Part shown: positions 158 to 9,685 of the stretch, in pieces
Position numbering within the stretch: position 1 is the first letter of the stretch
Layout: every line of letters starts with the position of its first letter
Assembly: GCA_020430865.1 (NCBI GenBank)
Contig: JAGQIY010000417.1
Coordinates: 1-9,685 of the forward strand
DNA from: Myxococcales bacterium
GTDB taxonomy: Bacteria > Myxococcota > Polyangia > Polyangiales > Polyangiaceae
Direction of reading: 5' to 3'
Length of the DNA stretch: 9,685 nt
The notes under the pieces: generated by a model
Databases searched by the model: none
What the model was told of the DNA's origin: nothing
The model's input: the letters and a program-made list of their open reading frames with translations, nothing else
Made by a program: the position numbers and the translations under genes

Positions 158-489
158 TTACTCCGATCCGAGTCGATGCGCGCGTATGACACAGCGTCGG
201 TGGCCGAGTGTAGCGAGTTTCCCCGAACTGAATGGGTGTGCGGGTGGCAATCCCGGGGCGATGCCGTTAGGGTGCACGAGTCCTTGGAAAGGGAGAGCGA
301 CCGATCCTTTGTGTAAGTTCCGTTCGAAGTAGCCGCAGATTCAGTCAGATCTCCCTCAGACAGAGTTTCCGTGCCGCGGCTCCCGCCGCGCTGCTCTCGG
401 GTAGCGAACGCCCCCGCTGTATGTCCGTTTCGCGGTGCCTGGACCGACGAAGTCGTGACCCGAGGGGCCAGTCACGAGGCTTCCCGTCC
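158..489. other. Non-coding leader before the + strand cluster
   Basis: This stretch lies upstream of the FN3 gene and holds no ORF with both a ribosome binding site and believable codon use. No tRNA-like fold or strong terminator was seen. The promoter of the cluster should lie here, but I found no pair of -35/-10 boxes good enough to call: TTGGAA at 284-289 has no convincing partner at 16-18 nt. Confidence 0.5.
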
Positions 490-951
490 GTGTTTCGTGG
501 CGCGCTGCTGCTGGCGCTGCCGCTGGCCTGGTGCTTGTTCGCGGCCTCGGCGCAAGCCGAGCAGCTCCAGCCAAAGATGCTTGGGGACACACGCCTCGAG
601 TCGCAAGCGGGTAGCTCCTCGCTGACCTGGAAGGCCGAACACGAGTCGGGCCCCGAACCGACCTACGAACTGCAGCGCGCAACAGACCCGGACTTCGAGA
701 ACCCCAAGACGCTCTATCGCGGCCCCGATCAGGGCCGCTTCGTGTCCGGCATGCTCGATGGCTCGTACTACTACCGGGTGCGCGCGCGGCAGGGCGAGGC
801 CGCTTGGAGCACCTGGTCCGAGCCGCAGGAGCTGGTCGTCACGCACTGGTCGCGGACGCGGGCCCTCGGGCTGATGGCGGTGGGCGCACTCGTCTTCTTG
901 GCCATCGTATTCGTGGTCCTGAACGGCACTCGGAAAGTCGAGCCGAGCTGA
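490..951 (+). CDS. Secreted, membrane-anchored fibronectin type III-like protein
   Basis: A protein of about 153 residues. I chose GTG at 490 because it starts directly on a clean signal peptide (VFRGALLLALPLAW..., cleavage after AQA at about residue 23) and has GAGG at 476-479. ATG at 421 would add 23 Arg-rich residues with no ribosome binding site. The mature part (about residues 24-120) looks like one FN3-like beta sandwich: SLTWKAEHESG, YELQRATDPDF, then GSYYYRVRARQGEAAWSTWS, a typical F-G strand pattern ending in EPQELVV. A hydrophobic helix near the C-terminus (about 126-147) and a short basic tail (RKVEPS) anchor it, so the FN3 domain faces the periplasm. The symporter gene starts four bases after its stop, so it is the first gene of the cluster. 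It may be an accessory or binding subunit of the transporter (inference); no catalytic motif is visible. Confidence 0.82.
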   Translation: MFRGALLLALPLAWCLFAASAQAEQLQPKMLGDTRLESQAGSSSLTWKAEHESGPEPTYELQRATDPDFENPKTLYRGPDQGRFVSGMLDGSYYYRVRARQGEAAWSTWSEPQELVVTHWSRTRALGLMAVGALVFLAIVFVVLNGTRKVEPS

Positions 952-2437: not shown

Positions 2438-2556
2438 TATTTCCACTCGGATTTTTTGAGTTCCTGGTTTACGGCGGTGTCGCGCTGACCGCGTTCGGCG
2501 CCGTCCTGGTAATCGTGCTGCTCTTGCGTGACTTGAAGGAGGGGAAGCTGTGGTAG
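2434..2556 (+). CDS. 40-residue single-pass membrane protein coupled to the symporter
   Basis: A 40-residue ORF: a hydrophobic span from about residue 7 to 31 (FFEFLVYGGVALTAFGAVLV followed by IVLLL), then a charged tail RDLKEGKLW. By the positive-inside rule the tail is cytoplasmic and the N-terminus periplasmic. It has a GGAGG six bases upstream. Its ATG overlaps the symporter stop (ATGA), and its stop TAG overlaps the GTG of the next gene (GTGGTAG, 2550-2556), so three genes are translationally chained. The first codons are AT-rich (ATA TTT CCA ... TTT TTT), as is common at real starts and unlike the surrounding GC-rich DNA. I do not recognise a named family. Small partner proteins are known for several SSS carriers, so an accessory subunit is the best guess (inference). 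Confidence 0.75.
   Translation: MIFPLGFFEFLVYGGVALTAFGAVLVIVLLLRDLKEGKLW
2536..2544 (+). promoter_or_regulatory. Strong ribosome binding site for the carbamoyltransferase
   Basis: AAGGAGGGG, with the GGAGG core at 2538-2542, lies seven bases before GTG 2550 and inside the 40-residue ORF. It fixes the GTG as start and explains why the N-terminus is longer than in E. coli PyrB. Confidence 0.8.
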
Positions 2557-3647
2557 AGCTTGCGGACGGCATCCACTCGGGGCCAGGCCCGTTTCACTCC
2601 AACTCCAAGGGTCGTCGACTCGACCCGAACGAGATACTCACCAACAACGACAAACGCATCAACTTCGACCGCCTGGAACAGCTCAACGGGCAGTCGGTGG
2701 TCCACGCCGGGCAGTTCGATCGCGAGATGATCGTGGAGCTCTCGCGATTCGCCGCGCTGCTGGAGCTGTCCGAGGTGGCCAGCCACCACCCGCTGGACGG
2801 GAAGCTGGTGATCACCGCCTTCTTCGAGGCGAGCACGCGCACTCGCCTGTCCTTCGAGAGCGCCGTGCTGCGCCTCGACGGCAAGGTGCTCAGCGTGCCC
2901 GATGGGCGGACGACGGGAGCCGCGAAGGGCGAGAGCCTCGAGGACATCGGGGAGATGATGAACACCTATGGCGACCTCGTCATCATGCGCCACACGGAAA
3001 CGGACGCGGTGCGTCGCATCCGCACGAACCTCCAGCTGCCGCTGATCAACGCGGGCAACGGCTCCGGCGAACACCCGACCCAGGCGCTGGTCGACTGGTA
3101 CACGCTGCTGAAGTGGCGACCGATCCTCTCTGCGCCCGAGGTACCGGAGTCTCAGCGCATCCACCTCGGCATCGTCGGAACGCCAGGCAACATGCGCGCG
3201 GTGAAGAGCTTCATGCGCATGGCGCTGACCTTCGCCGCCGGGATCACGAAGATCACGGTGATCTCCGAGATGGCGGACCCGTTGGGCGCAGAGCTCACTG
3301 CCTGGGTCGCCGAAAGCAGCGTGACCGTCGAGATCACGAACAACATCGAGGACGTCACCGAGTGTCTGGACGTCGTTTACATGAACTCGATCGCGCTGCT
3401 GGGCGACAGCTACAAGACACTGGATAGCCGTTACAAGCTACACTCCGAGAGCAAGCTCAAGCCCGAAGCAGTGATCCTCCACCCGATGGCCAGGCGCTCG
3501 GAGCTCGACACGTCCCTGGACGGCACTTCGCACAATCTCTACTTCGCGCAGGCGGCTGGCGCCGTGTTCATCCGCCAGGCGATCCTGATCTGTCTGCTCG
3601 GTCGCGTGGCGGCCATTCCTGGCGGCATCCGCCTGCTCACGCAGTGA
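2550..3647 (+). CDS. Aspartate/ornithine carbamoyltransferase family enzyme (PyrB-like, altered second-substrate site)
   Basis: A 365-residue cytosolic transcarbamylase. The carbamoyl-phosphate site is intact: FFEASTRTR (91-99), Lys126 in AAKGES (E. coli ATCase Lys84), IMRH with Arg147 (Arg105), HPTQ 175-178 (His134 region) and Arg216 in NMRAVKS (Arg167). The C-terminal signature YFAQAAGAVFIRQAIL (331-346) is ATCase-like. Against my recalled E. coli sequence, the 240s loop YMTRVQKER aligns with YMNSIALLGD (277-286). This puts Ser280 and Ala282 where aspartate-contacting Arg229 and Gln231 sit, and HPLPR becomes HPMAR (311-315). Automatic pipelines would call it aspartate carbamoyltransferase. 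I read it as a family member whose amine acceptor may not be aspartate. No pyrI, pyrC or carAB is nearby. About 34 residues precede the usual N-terminus. It is translationally coupled to the small ORF. Confidence 0.88.
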   Translation: MVELADGIHSGPGPFHSNSKGRRLDPNEILTNNDKRINFDRLEQLNGQSVVHAGQFDREMIVELSRFAALLELSEVASHHPLDGKLVITAFFEASTRTRLSFESAVLRLDGKVLSVPDGRTTGAAKGESLEDIGEMMNTYGDLVIMRHTETDAVRRIRTNLQLPLINAGNGSGEHPTQALVDWYTLLKWRPILSAPEVPESQRIHLGIVGTPGNMRAVKSFMRMALTFAAGITKITVISEMADPLGAELTAWVAESSVTVEITNNIEDVTECLDVVYMNSIALLGDSYKTLDSRYKLHSESKLKPEAVILHPMARRSELDTSLDGTSHNLYFAQAAGAVFIRQAILICLLGRVAAIPGGIRLLTQ

Positions 3648-3772
3648 GACGAGTCACCCGGTGAGTCCTCCCAGGCATTGGCGAGGAACCACTGACCGCG
3701 ACGCATCGGCCCTGCGCCTGCGGCGCGCAACATTACCTGCCCGCACCGCGGGCTCACCAATAGGAGACCACC
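3648..3772 (+). other. Intergenic gap between carbamoyltransferase and amidotransferase
   Basis: This 125-nt spacer is the only sizeable gap in the cluster. It contains an imperfect inverted repeat GAGTCACC-C-GGTGAGTC (3651-3667, 7 of 8 positions pairing). The one-base centre is too short for a hairpin but fits a dyad protein-binding site. There is no T-tract, so it does not look like a terminator, and no clear promoter was found. Confidence 0.4.
3762..3766 (+). promoter_or_regulatory. Ribosome binding site of the AsnB-like gene
   Basis: AGGAG lies six bases before ATG 3773. The ATG is followed directly by the TGT codon of the catalytic Cys2, which fixes the start. Confidence 0.75.
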
Positions 3773-5731
3773 ATGTGTGGAATCGTTGGGTTCTGGCAAC
3801 CTGGAAAGCTACCGGGCAACGCGGACGCCTTGCTCGGTCGAATGATGGCTCGACTGCATCATCGCGGCCCCGACGGCAGCGGCAGTCACATTGACCGCGA
3901 ACGTGGCCTGGCCATGGGACACACCCGGCTCACGATCATCGATCTGAGGACGGGCCAACAGCCGCTGTTCGCGCGCCAGCAGGGACTGGTGCTGACGTCC
4001 AACGGCGAGCTATACGACTACAAAAAAATCCGCGCAGAATATGTATGCGAGGGCAAACGCTTCAGCACCAAGAGCGATAGCGAGACCGCGCTCTTCCACT
4101 ACATGCGCTATGGGCTGGACTTCGTCGAGCAGCTGCGAGGCGAGTTCGCTGTCGCGATCTTCGACGAGCAGGAGAAGCGGCTGGTCCTGGTGCGAGACCG
4201 CTTTGGCATCAAGCCGCTGTACTATCACCTGAAGGACAACCTGCTGGTCTACGGCTCGGAGTGCAAAGCGCTGCTGGCTCACCCCGACGTACCGCGCAGG
4301 CTCGACAAGAAGGCGGCGCTGAATCAGCTGATGCAGGTGATGGTCCCCGGGACCACGTCCTTCGAGGAGATCCACGCCCTCGAGCCGGGCTGTATGTTGA
4401 TCGTGCAGGAGCAAGCCGGGCGCCTGATAGGCCGCGTGCATCGTTACTGGGACATGGACTTCCCCGACGCGAAAGATCACGACCCGGATCCCGATCCTCG
4501 CCCTTATATCCGCGGGGTACAGGACCGACTCGTGGACGCGGTGAGCGCACGTCTGGAGGCCGACGTTCCGGTGGGCTGCTACCTGAGCGGCGGCATCGAC
4601 AGCTGCTCCATGCTCGGCTTGGCCACCGCCCTGCAACAGTCACCGGTGAAGGCCTTCACCATCAGCTTCGACAACAAGGCCTACGACGAAGCCGCCATCG
4701 CCACCGAAATGGCGATGAGCACCGGCGCCGATCAGGAGATCCTGGAGCTCGGTGCCGAGGAGCTGTACGGGGACAGCTTCATTCGCACGGTGTGGCACTC
4801 CGAGCGCACGTTCTACAACACCCTGGGCGTCGCCAAGTGGCACATGAGCAAGCGCGTGCGGGAATGCGGCTACAAGGTCGTGGTGACCGGCGAAGGCAGC
4901 GATGAGCTCTTTGGTGGCTACGTGTTCTTCAAGCGCGACATGTTCCGACACGCCCCGGAGTTCGCGGTACGGGGTAGCGCTGCGGAGTCCGCGATGGCCG
5001 AGCGCAACGCCGTGTTCAAGGGCTCGGTGTTGACCGAGGAAGATGCCGCGCATCCGGCGTTCGACGAGCTCGTCGGCTTCACGCCGTCCTGGCTTCAGAG
5101 CTGGCTCCTCACGCTGGCTCAGGGACGCCCGCTGCTCGCCGACGGCGTGCTCGAAGAACTCAGGGACTACGACCCGGTGCAGGCCATCGCCGACAAGCTC
5201 GACGCCCACAAGCTCAAGGGGCGCCACCCCCTCGACAAGGTCCAGTACACCTGGATCAAGACCATGCTCGAGGGTCAGATCCTGACCTGGGGAGGCGATC
5301 GGGTAGACATGGCCAACTCGATGGAGTCGCGTCCGGCGTTCCTCGATCAGCATGTCGCGGAGTTCGCGCGCACCCTACCGCCACGACTCCGCATCAGCGA
5401 GCAGGGCATCGAGAAGTGGGTCCTCCGCGAGGCGATGCGCGGCGTGCTGCCCCAGGTGTTGTACGAGCGCGAGAAGTTCGCCTTCATGGCGCCGCCAGCG
5501 CACACCGACCGCAAGAAGCGGCAGGCGATCGACGAGATCTTGAACGAGCGCCTGACCCCAGACCACGTCAAGGCCTTGGGGCTCTTCGACCCAGAGCGCC
5601 TGAGCAAGTTCCTCGCGGATTCAGCCCGAGAGACGGACCACGCCAAGGCTGTCCGCAACGACATCCTGCTGAACCACATCCTCGGGCTGCACGTGATCCA
5701 GCAAGAGCTGCTCGACCGAGCTCTGAGCTAG
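3773..5731 (+). CDS. asnB: Glutamine-dependent asparagine synthetase family amidotransferase
   Basis: A 652-residue two-domain enzyme. The N-terminal class II glutaminase (about 1-200) has nucleophile Cys2 in MCGIVGFW, Arg52 in HTRLTIID, SNGELYD (76-82) and SDSE (101-104), so it should release ammonia from glutamine. The synthetase domain has the ATP PP-loop SGGIDS (272-277) and GEGSDELFGGY (373-383), so it should adenylate a carboxylate and amidate it. It is about 100 residues longer than E. coli AsnB. Some 135 residues separate GGY from ESRPAFLD (518-525), against roughly 45 in E. coli, and the usual E-x-R-V-P-F-L-D reads E-S-R-P-A-F-L-D. The extra helical block (FTPSWLQSWLL, KVQYTWIKTMLEGQ) lies on the acceptor side. 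It may therefore amidate something other than free aspartate. Free asparagine synthesis remains possible. It is the last gene of the cluster. Confidence 0.93.
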   Translation: MCGIVGFWQPGKLPGNADALLGRMMARLHHRGPDGSGSHIDRERGLAMGHTRLTIIDLRTGQQPLFARQQGLVLTSNGELYDYKKIRAEYVCEGKRFSTKSDSETALFHYMRYGLDFVEQLRGEFAVAIFDEQEKRLVLVRDRFGIKPLYYHLKDNLLVYGSECKALLAHPDVPRRLDKKAALNQLMQVMVPGTTSFEEIHALEPGCMLIVQEQAGRLIGRVHRYWDMDFPDAKDHDPDPDPRPYIRGVQDRLVDAVSARLEADVPVGCYLSGGIDSCSMLGLATALQQSPVKAFTISFDNKAYDEAAIATEMAMSTGADQEILELGAEELYGDSFIRTVWHSERTFYNTLGVAKWHMSKRVRECGYKVVVTGEGSDELFGGYVFFKRDMFRHAPEFAVRGSAAESAMAERNAVFKGSVLTEEDAAHPAFDELVGFTPSWLQSWLLTLAQGRPLLADGVLEELRDYDPVQAIADKLDAHKLKGRHPLDKVQYTWIKTMLEGQILTWGGDRVDMANSMESRPAFLDQHVAEFARTLPPRLRISEQGIEKWVLREAMRGVLPQVLYEREKFAFMAPPAHTDRKKRQAIDEILNERLTPDHVKALGLFDPERLSKFLADSARETDHAKAVRNDILLNHILGLHVIQQELLDRALS

Positions 5732-5793: not shown

Positions 5794-5807
5794 CTAGACT
5801 AGACTAG
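5794..5807. repeat. CTAGA tandem repeat giving stops in all frames of both strands
   Basis: CTAGACTAGACTAG is three CTAG palindromes spaced five bases apart. TAG occurs in all three frames on the plus strand (5795, 5800, 5805). It also occurs in all three minus frames, the copy at 5804-5806 being the stop of the barrel gene. Confidence 0.8.
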
Positions 5808-6751
5808 AAGCGCGCGCCGATCCCGACGCCGAGGCGAAAGTCCCAGGAGCTCTGCGCCTTCACTTCGTAGCTCGTGACCTGCCCTGCGGCGTCGAGCTCC
5901 TTGACGTCGACGCGATCCCGCCAGCTCGCGTCCTGGCTGAGGTTCTTGGCGGCGCGCAGCTCGATGGGGATTTCCACGGTCTCGTCTGCGTGAATCACCA
6001 GACCAAGGGCCATGTCCAGCATCGTCGAACTCTCGCCCTTCGCTCGGACCGCGCCGGCTTCCACCGGGATGTCCTGACTGTCCAGCTTGGCCTCGTTGCT
6101 GCTGGGGTTCATGAACCTCGGCCCCAACCCCAACCAGAAGCGACCGAACTGGGTCGGGATGACGCCCTTGATCAGGAAACCGAACCAGATCCCGGAGGAT
6201 ACGAAGCTCTCATCGCCATCGACGACCTTGTCGAACGTCACCTGACGCCGCAGAGTCGTGTGATCGTACCCGAGGTCGAACTCGAGCCCCAGGTAGGTGG
6301 CGATACGCCCCTCGGCGTAGAGCGCGGCGCCGTACCCGAAGCCACCCCCGACGCCGGAGAATCCGAGCCCTTCGTACCCATCGGGGACGTCGTCCGGGGC
6401 AGTCCAGACACTCCCTCCGAGCAGTACCTTCAGGCCCGCCGAAGCAGCGAACGGCCGCTCTTCCTCACGGGGCTCGGCGGGACGCGCTGGAGCCGTCTGC
6501 GGCGGGTAGGGCTGCGCACCGTAGGGCTGTGAGCCATAGGGCGGCGGACCATAGGGCTGCTGTGGCGCCGGCGGATAGGGCTGCGCCGTCGGATAGGGCT
6601 GCGCCGGCGGATAGGGCTGCGCCGTCGGATAGGGCTGCGCCGGCGGATAGGGCTGCGCCGTCGAATAAGGTGGCGGGGTTTGCGCGAGCGCCACGGCGCT
6701 CATGGACAGCGTCGCCGCCAGCGTTCCCATCAAGCCAAGTCGTGTCGCCAC
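5804..6751 (-). CDS. Outer-membrane beta-barrel protein with Pro/Tyr-rich repeat linker
   Basis: A 315-residue exported protein. The start is GTG at 6751-6749, with GGAGA at 6756-6760. An ATG further upstream (6889) would overlap the preceding gene and add an Arg-rich, non-exported leader. The signal peptide is ATRLGLMGTLAATLSMSAVALA, written here as two parts (ATRLGLMGTLAA and TLSMSAVALA), with cleavage near residue 23. Residues 25-86 are a low-complexity linker of AQPYPP/AQPYPT units followed by PYG motifs. From about 101 onward lies a predicted beta barrel: alternating strands, GGSVW, GYEGLGFSGVGGGFGYG, FGRFWLGLGP, TMLDMALGLVIHA, and the C-terminal SSWDFRLGVGIGARF ending in Phe, the BAM recognition mark. 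It is clearly paralogous to the gene just upstream (6825-7613), 73 nt away. The exact function is unknown; the linker could contact peptidoglycan or surface partners. Confidence 0.8.
   Translation of the reverse strand: MATRLGLMGTLAATLSMSAVALAQTPPPYSTAQPYPPAQPYPTAQPYPPAQPYPTAQPYPPAPQQPYGPPPYGSQPYGAQPYPPQTAPARPAEPREEERPFAASAGLKVLLGGSVWTAPDDVPDGYEGLGFSGVGGGFGYGAALYAEGRIATYLGLEFDLGYDHTTLRRQVTFDKVVDGDESFVSSGIWFGFLIKGVIPTQFGRFWLGLGPRFMNPSSNEAKLDSQDIPVEAGAVRAKGESSTMLDMALGLVIHADETVEIPIELRAAKNLSQDASWRDRVDVKELDAAGQVTSYEVKAQSSWDFRLGVGIGARF
6573..6662. repeat. 18-bp tandem repeat (five copies) coding AQPYP[P/T]
   Basis: Five nearly identical 18-bp units beginning GGATAGGGCTGCGCCG start at 6573, 6591, 6609, 6627 and 6645. 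One base alternates T/G between units, giving a 36-bp higher-order period and alternating Pro/Thr. Degenerate copies flank it (about 6503-6572 and 6663-6672). The unit is a multiple of three, so copy-number change keeps the frame. Confidence 0.9.
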
Positions 6752-6824
6752 AGCGTCTCCAAGCAAGTGCAACGGCGCGCCACGAAGACGAACGCGCCAG
6801 AAAGCGGCCACCACAGGGGCGCGC

Positions 6825-7613
6825 CTAGAAGCGCGCGCCGATGCCGAAGCCCAGACGGAAGTCCCAGCTGCTCTGCGCGGTGACTTCATAGCCAGTGACC
6901 TGAGTGCCAGTCTGTTGCAGCTTCACGCGCTGGTCCCAGTCGGCTTCCTGGCTGAGGTTCTTCGCCGCCCGTAGCTCGACGGGGATCTCGATCACATCAC
7001 CCGCGTGGATCACGAGGCCGAGCCCCATGTCGAGCATGGTCGAGTCCTTGGCCTTCGCCTGTATGAATCCGTCGGGAAAGGTTGCCCCCTCGAGCTGGGC
7101 GTCGGGGTCCCCCGAGAAGACCTTCAGCGGCCCGAGCCCCAGCCAGAAGCGACCGAAAGGCGTCGGGATGACGCCCTTGAACAGCAAGCCCACGCGCGTC
7201 TCCGACATCTCCACGCTCTCATCCACGTCCACCGTGCCGTTGTAGGTCACGGTCCGCCCGAGCTTGGTGTGGCCGAAGCCGATGTCGAACTCCAGCCCGA
7301 GGTACTCGATGAAGCGCGCCTCGAAGTACCCTGCGCCGCCGTACGCGAAGCCGCCCGCAGACCCCGCGAAGCCCAGGCCTTCATATCCACCTGGAATATT
7401 TTCAGGCGTGCCCCACAGACTCCCACCAAGCAGCGCCTTTGCGCCCGCGGAGAACTCGACGGCGCGCTTTGCGCGCGCCGGCGCAGCCTCCTCGGGGGGC
7501 GGCGTAGTTGAAGGTGCGCCCCCGGTCTGTGCCCCTGCATTGCCGGCGAGACAAACAGCGATCAGCGCCGCCGACGCGCTGGTCACTCCACTCAAGCCTG
7601 TCCCTCGTCTCAC
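6825..7613 (-). CDS. Outer-membrane beta-barrel protein (paralogue lacking the repeat linker)
   Basis: A 262-residue exported protein. The start is GTG at 7613-7611, five bases after a perfect AAGGAGG (7619-7625). The signal peptide is RRGTGLSGVTSASAALIAV followed by CLAGNAGA, with cleavage near residue 28. The Cys at 21 lacks a proper lipobox (IAVC), so it is not called a lipoprotein. A short Pro/Ala/Glu linker (about 31-50) leads into the barrel, which shares many blocks with its downstream paralogue: GGYEGLGFAG, EYLGLEFDIGFGHT, GVIPTPFGRFWLGLGP, STMLDMGLGLVIHA, ELRAAKNLSQEADW, SSWDFRLGFGIGARF. C-terminal Phe is typical of BAM substrates. The two genes arose by tandem duplication; even the last codons are nearly identical DNA. 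Probably co-transcribed. Substrate or role is not visible. Confidence 0.82.
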   Translation of the reverse strand: MRRGTGLSGVTSASAALIAVCLAGNAGAQTGGAPSTTPPPEEAAPARAKRAVEFSAGAKALLGGSLWGTPENIPGGYEGLGFAGSAGGFAYGGAGYFEARFIEYLGLEFDIGFGHTKLGRTVTYNGTVDVDESVEMSETRVGLLFKGVIPTPFGRFWLGLGPLKVFSGDPDAQLEGATFPDGFIQAKAKDSTMLDMGLGLVIHAGDVIEIPVELRAAKNLSQEADWDQRVKLQQTGTQVTGYEVTAQSSWDFRLGFGIGARF

Positions 7614-7944: not shown

Positions 7945-9685
7945 CTACTTCGGGATTTGATCCACGCAGACGTTGTTCACGCACTCTCGCTCATCGCAGC
8001 AGTCCGCGGAGGTAGAGCAGGTCTCGTTCAGCTGACGGCACTTCTCCGGTGGCGGCGGCGCACACACCAGGTTGCCGCTCATGTCGGGTCGGCAGTCTCC
8101 ACCGCAGCATTCGCTGTTCACCGCACACGAGTCGCCATCCTCGCGACACGCGCGCGGCGCGTAGAAGGCAGCGATGTTCTTGTGCTGAGGGTCTTGCCCC
8201 GGTAGCCAGTACGGCACGTGGCTCGGGTCCACGGTGCCATCCTTGCCGATGGCCGCGACCCAGAGTTGCTGACGCTGAGTGCCCCGCGTACCAGCGGTTG
8301 CGTTTCCGTAGTCTCGTCTGGAGAGGAACACGACCCAGAAATAGCCGCCCTCGTCAAACGGGGAGAAGTTCGGCTGGAAGTTGTCGACGCCGGCGCCGCA
8401 GGCCTTGTCCAAGCGCAGGACGTTGCTGCCATCGGCGTTCATGATGTAGAGCGCCGAGACCTTGCCATCGGGTGCGTCGCTGCGTGATCCAGTTCCGTGC
8501 GCAAACACGATGCGCCCCGAGTCCGGCGCCCAGGTTGGATAGCTATCGGCGACGCCGCCTTCGGGCTGGGCGGACAGCGAAGAGGCCACGTGGACCTGGG
8601 TCACGCCGCCAAACGTGTCGGGACCAGTGACGTCCAGGATGGAGATGTTCCCCGCAGTGAACTGCCCACCCCAGCTGTTGGCGTCGGACACGTAGGCGAT
8701 CTTGGCACCACTCGGCGACCAAGACGGCTGCAAGCCGCTGGGAAGCGTTCCTGTGACCGCCACCTCGGTGCCAGCGAAGGGATCGTAGATCTTGATCTCG
8801 CGAGTGCTATCCGCCTGGAAACTCACGACCAGGCGAGTGTCGTCCGGACTCCAGGAGCTGTCCCACCACTTGAGGGAGCCGTCGTTGATCGGCCAAAGGG
8901 ACGGCGGCGGATTGCCAGTGAGGTCCGCCGTCAGGTCGAACACGCCGCCGATGTTGTTGCCGGGGCCGAGGCGGCCTGCCATGTAGCGACCGCTGTTGGA
9001 AACCGAGTGGCAACCGATGCAGTTCTGACCGCCACCAGAACTCGCCGGCGGCGTGGGCATGAAGGAGACCGCGGTACCGGTGCCGTCGTCGATGCGCTTG
9101 ATCCGCGTTTCCTGAATGTCCCAGTAGTAGACGCTGCCGGTCAGCGCCCCCTTGGCGAAGGTGACTTCGACAGGCGTCTCGGCCTGGATCGCCTCGTTCG
9201 CCGCAGAATCCCAGCGGTCCACGCGGATCGTCGCCGGGTCGTCGGGATCGGTCTGAGCGATGGAACGCCAGGCCCCCACGTCGACCAGATAGTCGTTGTT
9301 GAAACCAGCGCCACCGTGCAGCACGTAGGCGGTCACCGCAGCGTGTGGCTTCTCCAGCGTGACGCGGAAGATGTCCCCCGCGGCTCCGTTGAGCCACTGC
9401 ACATCCGCGGGGAAAACGTTCTGCGGCATCACGGCCTGGTCCAGGGGATACACCAGGCCGGCAGCTCTGCCAGCGTCTTGAACCAGCGTGCCGAAGTGAG
9501 TACCCGAATCCATCGGCGCTCCCCCCGCGAACAGCGTCCGCTCGAGGTTGACCGTGATGGTCGCCGTGGCGCTCACCGCGGAGTCGTCTGCGAGGGTGGC
9601 GGTCAAGACCGCGGAGCCACCCACGATCCCGTTGGCAGTGAACACGCCGCTCGCGGGATCTATCTCGCCCAGGGACAGGGGGGCG
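7945..9685 (-). CDS. Partial surface protein: Ig-like domain, c-type haem motif, PD40/TolB-like propeller, cysteine-rich tail
   Basis: The frame stays open to the right edge (13 more codons upstream of the GTG at 9645), so this is the C-terminal part, about 580 residues, of a larger exported protein. Domains in order: a bacterial Ig-like (Big2-type) end with GEIDPASGVFTANG and GGSAVLTATL (about 9540-9685); a beta-rich region; CIGCH at 9021-9007, a covalent haem c motif, followed by SVSNSGRYMAG; then PD40-like propeller repeats WSPDDTRLVVSF, WSPSGAKIAYVSD, WAPDSGRIVFAHG and FQPNFSPFDEGGYF (about 8300-8880); and two six-cysteine repeats at the end (7948-8150). The haem motif implies transport of the chain to the periplasm or surface. 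TolB-like propellers usually bind proteins or peptides. The cysteine tail fits an oxidising extracellular setting. Function unknown; an electron-transfer or substrate-binding role is inference. Confidence 0.85.
   Translation of the reverse strand, partial: APLSLGEIDPASGVFTANGIVGGSAVLTATLADDSAVSATATITVNLERTLFAGGAPMDSGTHFGTLVQDAGRAAGLVYPLDQAVMPQNVFPADVQWLNGAAGDIFRVTLEKPHAAVTAYVLHGGAGFNNDYLVDVGAWRSIAQTDPDDPATIRVDRWDSAANEAIQAETPVEVTFAKGALTGSVYYWDIQETRIKRIDDGTGTAVSFMPTPPASSGGGQNCIGCHSVSNSGRYMAGRLGPGNNIGGVFDLTADLTGNPPPSLWPINDGSLKWWDSSWSPDDTRLVVSFQADSTREIKIYDPFAGTEVAVTGTLPSGLQPSWSPSGAKIAYVSDANSWGGQFTAGNISILDVTGPDTFGGVTQVHVASSLSAQPEGGVADSYPTWAPDSGRIVFAHGTGSRSDAPDGKVSALYIMNADGSNVLRLDKACGAGVDNFQPNFSPFDEGGYFWVVFLSRRDYGNATAGTRGTQRQQLWVAAIGKDGTVDPSHVPYWLPGQDPQHKNIAAFYAPRACREDGDSCAVNSECCGGDCRPDMSGNLVCAPPPPEKCRQLNETCSTSADCCDERECVNNVCVDQIPK
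7948..8150 (-). other. Two C-terminal six-cysteine (CC-type) repeats
   Basis: Within the PD40 protein, two units share C-x6-C-x5-CC-x3/4-C-x4/9-C: CREDGDSCAVNSECC with GGDC and a distal C, then CRQLNETCSTSADCC with DEREC and VNNVC. They are joined by a PPPPEK linker. The spacing resembles small disulfide-knot modules; three disulfides per unit are likely. Confidence 0.75.

Follow-up and report, generated by a model that had tools for sequence, protein, structure and literature searches.

The window examined here, a stretch of 9,685 nucleotides on contig JAGQIY010000417.1 of a Myxococcales bacterium (assembly GCA_020430865.1), carries a gene for a divergent transcarbamylase and, on the same strand, a gene for an AsnB-like glutamine amidotransferase. 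The gene order is a small open reading frame (ORF176), a symporter, a tiny reading frame, the transcarbamylase and the amidotransferase. The central pair and its motifs comprise:

2550..3647 (+): transcarbamylase, proposed L-glutamine N-alpha-carbamoyltransferase; GTG start, 365 amino acids; assigned by Pfam, NCBIfam, alignment and tree
2832..2846 (+): STRTR codons (95-99) of the carbamoyl-phosphate site, kept; aligned to E. coli 52-56
3195..3197 (+): codon of R216, equivalent to the alpha-carboxylate contact Arg167 of E. coli; retained in 84/84 family members
3384..3404 (+): NSIALLG codons (279-285), the altered 240's loop; by alignment Thr228 to Asn, Arg229 to Ser and Gln231 to Ala
3480..3494 (+): HPMAR codons (311-315); by alignment, Pro268 of the HxLP motif to Ala
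3773..5731 (+): AsnB-like glutamine amidotransferase, proposed C1-amide former; PF00733 and PF13537

The initial annotation had described a carbamoyltransferase at 2550-3647 with an intact carbamoyl-phosphate site and an altered aspartate site. The open reading frame was confirmed, with its GTG start and 365 residues, and the encoded protein exceeds the cut-offs for two OTCace domains, PF02729 (114.2 bits) and PF00185 (39.6 bits). All retained residues listed in that annotation are present (STRTR 95-99, K126, R147, HPTQ 175-178 and R216), and among them lie the superfamily motifs SxRT (STRT, 95-98) and HPxQ (175-178). A structure model of the protein has a predicted local distance difference test (pLDDT) score of 87.2, and its best structural matches are aspartate transcarbamylases (ATCases), which are described as an unknotted type of transcarbamylase (PMC4581275). 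Alignment with E. coli PyrB pairs S280 with Arg229, A282 with Gln231, A314 with Pro268 and R216 with Arg167; this agrees with the claim that serine and alanine occupy the aspartate-contact positions within YMNSIALLGD, with no Arg or Gln there, and HPMAR indeed stands at 311-315 in place of HPLPR. The HxLP motif, for which some variation among transcarbamylases is described (PMC4581275), is accordingly absent from the window protein. On the NCBIfam ATCase model TIGR00670 the protein scores 174.5 bits against a cut-off of 236.95, and a homologue from Thioalkalivibrio thiocyanoxidans (locus L006) scores 201.4 bits.

These substitutions define a family and recur far more consistently than chance would allow. 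We aligned 84 members with 78 PyrB sequences; the PyrB set is without loci L011, L012 and L026, in which no frame held all three motifs. Arg167 and Lys84 are present in 84/84 members. Position 229 is Ser in 50 and Ala in 34 members and position 231 is Ala in 80, Ser in 2, Val in 1 and Thr in 1, as against Arg and Gln, respectively, in 78/78 PyrB sequences, where 67 of the 78 rows had been chosen for RxQxER and both positions were thereby fixed. Position 268, which that choice left free, is Pro in 78/78 PyrB sequences, as compared to Ala in 83 members and Ser in 1. Other changes are Ser80 to Gly (83/84), Gly166 to Met (84/84), Thr228 to Asn (83/84) and Ala283 to Asn (84/84). No member has Arg229 or Gln231 (0/84), and the RxQxER motif reported for all known ATCases (PMC4581275) is missing from all 84. 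The family resembles PyrB in its fold, its carbamoyl-phosphate site and its Arg167, Lys84 and Glu50, but differs in lacking Arg229, Gln231 and Pro268, in carrying Gly for Ser80 in all but one member, in an identity of ~30%, and in its clade and gene neighbours.

The family tree called for by the initial annotation was run by maximum likelihood on 68 rows, 46 of them family members, with PyrB and ArgF rows for contrast and the partial L134 omitted. The 46 members form a single group with 100/100 support, which includes none of the PyrB or ArgF rows used. Support for placing this group next to E. coli PyrB is weak (84/43), and long branches meet among the ArgF, YgeW and PyrB rows. The 46-member alignment is without L120 (no complete row) and L121 (not entered); position 268 is shifted in several of its PyrB rows, the other alignments placing Pro there in 78/78. 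The late motif reads HP[LMF][AS]R in the 46 member rows, and the loop differs between sub-clades: most rows of the window type read NSIA[LFY]L, and most of those from gammaproteobacteria read N[AS]I[AS]W.

A canonical PyrB accompanies the family transcarbamylase in 21/21 relative genomes examined. The genomes G001-G010 each encode three PF02729 proteins, another of which carries RxQxER in 10/10, and a separate RxQxER PyrB is found in 11/11 of a second set, made up of 10 Ectothiorhodospira-genus genomes and Thiorhodospira sibirica. The sub-cut-off TIGR00670 score, the separate clade, the missing RxQxER and the PyrB encoded alongside in relatives all uphold the earlier suggestion of a transcarbamylase other than ATCase that carries a PyrB label, and the family member is almost certainly a transcarbamylase but not an ATCase. 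Database names are mostly 'aspartate carbamoyltransferase', with some entries named 'aspartate/ornithine carbamoyltransferase family protein' or 'hypothetical protein'. A protein search of 7,999 candidates returned at least 7,658 matches at E <= 0.001, a number that may include true PyrB and does not count the family; among the 120 matches listed, identity to the query was 62-92%.

Other known transcarbamylases differ from the window protein in model score or motif. Those acting on ornithine, putrescine and acetylornithine, together with YgeW, share the superfamily and its carbamoyl-phosphate motifs with the window protein, but their NCBIfam models score far below cut-off on it (for YgeW, 22.6 and 21.7 bits vs 453 and 500), and the DxxxSMG loop of ornithine transcarbamylase is replaced by NSIALLGD. 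Ureidoglycine transcarbamylase (UGTCase) is an ATCase-like enzyme annotated as a pseudo-ATCase, with the motif H(T/S)LP (PMC4581275). That motif is absent from the window protein, which has HPMAR, and the 46 member rows have HP[LMF][AS]R in its stead; the tree was built without UGTCase.

ATCase holds the beta-carboxyl group of aspartate through R229 and Q231, and positions the alpha-carboxyl group through R167 together with K84 of the next subunit (PMC4581275). Because Arg167 and Lys84 are kept and Arg229 and Gln231 are lost, the contacts to an alpha-amino acid are, by alignment, retained and those to an acidic side chain gone, next to a carbamoyl-phosphate site that, as judged from the aligned residues, is intact. 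The absence of Arg229 and Gln231 and the gain of Asn at 228 and 283 would suit an alpha-amino acid whose side chain is neutral. The predicted acceptor is most likely the alpha-amino group of such an amino acid, with L-glutamine as the leading candidate.

The amidotransferase constitutes the second half of the pair. Pfam identifies the neighbours of the transcarbamylase as an SSF symporter and an Asn_synthase/GATase protein, in line with the initial annotation, which had remarked on these genes in place of pyr genes. The partner possesses Cys2, NGE and SGGIDS motifs and shares both domains and Cys2 with asparagine synthetase B; however, it is only 30% identical to E. coli AsnB (over 407 residues), as compared to 50-59% to 12 counterparts encoded beside other family members. 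In a survey of 369 gammaproteobacterial genomes (transcarbamylase at E <= 1e-60, partner at E <= 1e-140), the transcarbamylase was detected in 25 and the partner in 23, all 23 lying within those 25 (Fisher p = 1.4e-34, a value that ignores the shared ancestry of the genomes and is no true probability). In 20/23 genomes the two genes share a contig, with 15-546 bases between them, and in 3/23 they are on different contigs; they are adjacent in 10/10 of the loci L001-L010. The pair occurs in Pseudomonadota, Planctomycetota and Actinomycetota, and the transcarbamylase also appears in records labelled, for example, Myxococcales, Nannocystaceae or Leptospiraceae. The named genomes with the pair come mostly from marine or haloalkaline habitats. 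Presence was recorded in 41/47 genomes of one taxonomic family. The spread is sporadic, with 2/294 genomes in the phylum to which G001 belongs, counting G001 itself. Among 297 genomes in the phylum of G011 there were 0 matches for the transcarbamylase, but this search was run without a positive control and is uninformative as to Myxococcota.

An amidotransferase acting on an N-capped glutamine compound has a precedent in N-acetylglutaminylglutamine amide (NAGGN), in which such a compound is amidated at C1 by an AsnB-type enzyme. NAGGN represents a described solute class (PMC1224877), and the partner matches the corresponding model TIGR03104 at 279.5 bits, but below its cut-off of 570.1; moreover, the cap proposed here would be carbamoyl rather than acetyl. 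A carbamoyl-capped counterpart is known. Nalpha-carbamoyl-L-glutamine 1-amide (CGA), a compatible solute, was isolated from the salt-loving purple bacterium Ectothiorhodospira marismortui and described in 1991 (Galinski and Oren 1991, via the reviews PMC1224877 and PMC3857566); to date only a handful of bacteria have been described as sources of it. The transcarbamylase is encoded in 10/10 Ectothiorhodospira-genus genomes, including E. magna (G014), E. lacustris (G013) and strain BSL-9 (G021). In the last of these, the gene is split over two frames (C1 1194650-1195584), through decay or sequencing error.

Two genomes of the genus resemble the group that contains the CGA producer. G017 has 2.6 Mb with 68.8% G+C at the locus, and G016 has 2.8 Mb with 68.6%; the values reported for E. 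marismortui DSM 4180T are 2,624,954 bp and 68.2% G+C, those for E. mobilis DSM 237T are 2,796,053 bp and 68.3%, and small genomes with high G+C are described as distinguishing the E. marismortui/E. mobilis group (PMC8877833). Neither betA nor BetI scored above cut-off in G016 or G017, and their absence is reported for E. mobilis and E. marismortui (PMC7824335). betA and BetI are also missing above cut-off in G014 and in the 2.0-Mb G018, the loci of which have 61.7% and 55.2% G+C, and E. magna is said to lack betaine synthesis (PMC7824335). The same paper reports no annotated genes for osmotic stress in T. sibirica. These data fit the identification of G017 as E. marismortui DSM 4180T, which would place the gene cluster in the CGA-producing species. 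CGA is named in three open-access papers (PMC1224877, PMC3857566 and PMC7824335), and we found no gene for it in the open-access literature searched, subscription journals lying outside the search. The main texts of two Thioalkalivibrio papers (PMC8092127 and PMC9062515) contain neither 'asparagine' nor 'carbam', and other papers near the topic treat NAGGN (PMC7398229) and a feed additive (PMC11979133).

A pathway for CGA can be proposed, which goes beyond the initial annotation in that the latter named no acceptor. The transcarbamylase would convert L-glutamine and carbamoyl phosphate to Nalpha-carbamoyl-L-glutamine, and the AsnB-like enzyme, consuming glutamine and ATP, would amidate the alpha-carboxylate (C1) to give CGA, which is uncharged and rich in nitrogen and would serve as a compatible solute. 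Recovery or import of CGA may fall to the Na+/solute symporter. Where present, an isochorismatase-like amidase and an M20 carbamoylase-like hydrolase would reverse the two steps so that the nitrogen is reused; with the transcarbamylase and the AsnB-like enzyme, they make up the set that the making and unmaking of an N-carbamoyl amino acid amide would need. At the level of sequence, the alpha-carboxylate contacts are kept and the side-chain-carboxylate contacts lost, the clade is separate, its pairing with the amidotransferase is tight, and the genes are present in a genome matching the CGA species. From these features we infer the acceptor, the product and the order in which the two enzymes act, as well as what the hydrolases do and what the symporter carries. 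The product is very probably an N-carbamoyl amino acid amide, and CGA itself is a probable identity for it. To the reading as a whole, namely that the clade is a new L-glutamine N-alpha-carbamoyltransferase which makes CGA with a dedicated amidotransferase, with producers in at least three phyla and mostly in salty waters, we assign a probability of roughly 0.6. If true, it would supply the genes for a compatible solute described in 1991, and the transcarbamylases would gain a member whose acceptor is new and whose HxLP motif is altered; many PyrB labels would be corrected, and a solute with four nitrogen atoms to six carbons would become traceable in marine and soda-lake genomes.

Several observations weigh against this proposal. 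In E. marismortui CGA has been termed a minor solute, and Raman spectra of extracts from this species reportedly showed no CGA signal, with a reference library that did not include CGA (PMC3857566). Since the genes are found in 10/10 genomes of the genus, they do not set the CGA species apart from its congeners, and the match of G017 to that species is indirect. The partner, with a putative substrate, scores above the cut-off of the asparagine synthase model TIGR01536 (397.5 vs 267.1 bits), and the best NCBIfam model for the M20 protein is allantoate amidohydrolase (535.1 vs a cut-off of 399). Among L001-L010, some of which are short, an M20 gene lies near the pair in only 6/10 loci (on the opposite strand in L002) and an isochorismatase-like gene in only 3/10; neither hydrolase has a match within the window. 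In T. sibirica (G057) both genes of the pair are present but far apart. Lastly, in the soil actinomycete Actinosynnema pretiosum (L003) the pair is accompanied by neither symporter nor hydrolases.

Among the alternatives, the most probable, though still unlikely, is a relative of CGA made from another acceptor or in another order: glutamate with one or two amides added, glutamine amide formed by amidation beforehand, asparagine or some other amino acid. The side-chain length of the acceptor is unreadable from sequence, the loop differs between the two sub-clades and acceptors could therefore differ, and the M20 neighbour resembles the ErtE N-carbamyl-L-glutamate amidohydrolase. The loss of Arg229 and Gln231 nonetheless argues against an acidic side chain, and the conserved Arg167 and Lys84 suggest that the alpha-carboxylate is free when the first enzyme acts. 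CGA is the only such solute known to be reported for the genus. A secondary-metabolite or peptide pathway, in which an amino compound is carbamoylated and then enters AsnB-like amide-bond formation, is improbable. AsnB-like enzymes do make natural-product lactams, lasso-peptide and macrolactam NCBIfam models match the partner below cut-off, Actinosynnema has the pair, and the spread within the phylum of G001 is sporadic; but occurrence in 41/47 genomes of a single family is unlike a strain-specific metabolite, and the recurring neighbours are hydrolases, a symporter and, in Ectothiorhodospira, sucrose enzymes. Core biosynthetic genes may nevertheless lie among the other neighbours, which were listed without annotation.

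Less probable still is a divergent but working ATCase, an additional PyrB that would serve catabolism or provide spare capacity: not one of the 84 members has Arg229 or Gln231, a canonical PyrB is present alongside in every relative genome examined, no pyr genes adjoin it in the window, and the family is tightly linked to an amidotransferase. It is least likely of all that the amidotransferase makes glutathione amide next to an unrelated transcarbamylase. Glutathione amide is known in purple sulfur bacteria and inferred for most Ectothiorhodospiraceae, yet the proxy glutathione reductase was reportedly not found in E. mobilis and E. marismortui (PMC8877833), and G016 and G017 carry the pair; in addition, all 23 genomes with the partner, out of 369, encode the transcarbamylase as well. 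The CGA pathway is the reading that we prefer.

The remaining genes at the upstream end of the window are:

421..951 (+): ORF176, a small protein that on visual inspection has a hydrophobic N-terminus and a membrane span towards its C-terminus; tblastn matches of 33-36% close to the module in L002, L006, L008 and L125
956..2437 (+): sodium:solute symporter (SSS family), proposed to act in solute uptake or salvage; PF00474, 88.5 bits
2434..2556 (+): 40-residue hydrophobic peptide; its start overlaps the symporter stop and its stop overlaps the transcarbamylase start

ORF176 has no Pfam or NCBIfam match; reading frames of similar size lie directly upstream of the symporter in L004, L007, L009 and L010. 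The symporter stands beside the pair in 9/10 of the loci L001-L010 and has no match in the 10 Ectothiorhodospira-genus loci, and the 40-residue peptide has 35-38% matches in L002 and L108. In T. thiocyanoxidans (L006) the order is a MarR regulator, a small membrane protein, M20, isochorismatase-like hydrolase, symporter, transcarbamylase and amidotransferase. The M20 protein also exceeds the hydantoinase/carbamoylase subfamily cut-off (374.1 vs 204), with the ErtE model second-best at 396.9, below its cut-off of 520; the model nearest to the isochorismatase-like hydrolase is biuret amidohydrolase (77.7 vs a cut-off of 370).

In the Ectothiorhodospira genus, the M20, isochorismatase-like, transcarbamylase and AsnB-like genes occur together in 10/10 loci. 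Sucrose synthase follows on the M20 side of this group, and on the AsnB side, at a distance of 0.1-5.7 kb, there is a fructokinase-like gene; in L118 the latter sits at the locus edge, only partly within the stretch. Both families were assigned on the proteins of G017, in which the sucrose synthase scores 1,182 bits on TIGR02470 (cut-off 810.4) and the fructokinase-like protein 86.3 bits on the fructokinase model (cut-off 450). A sucrose synthase match lies beside the module in all 10 Ectothiorhodospira-genus loci (L111-L120) and also in L123. Sucrose is described as a candidate solute of such bacteria (PMC7824335).

Two of the 25 gammaproteobacterial transcarbamylase hits, those in G515 and G624, and a second copy in G598 were rejected as another paralogue, as none passes a filter for SxRT and HPxQ in one frame; neither G515 nor G624 has an AsnB-like match at E <= 1e-80. 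The paralogues lie at L157 3857-4927, L158 about 2489-3700 and L159 8212-9363. Those in L157 and L159 lack both motifs and keep a family-like H-N-x-Y-F stretch, perhaps as pseudoenzymes or with another function. In the L003 amidotransferase, the translated stretch contains neither NGE nor SGG[LIV]D[ST], both of which are found in 12/13 family proteins.

At the far end of the window, a reverse-strand gene at 7945-9684 (-), which extends past the window end, encodes a TolB-like propeller protein (PD40) that contains a CxxCH motif and is rich in cysteine at its C-terminus. Two adjacent genes at 5804-6889 and 6825-7613 (-) encode proteins that have no Pfam or NCBIfam match; alike by eye, they are possible outer-membrane paralogues, and the longer (5804-6889) carries PYPPAQPYPTAQ repeats.
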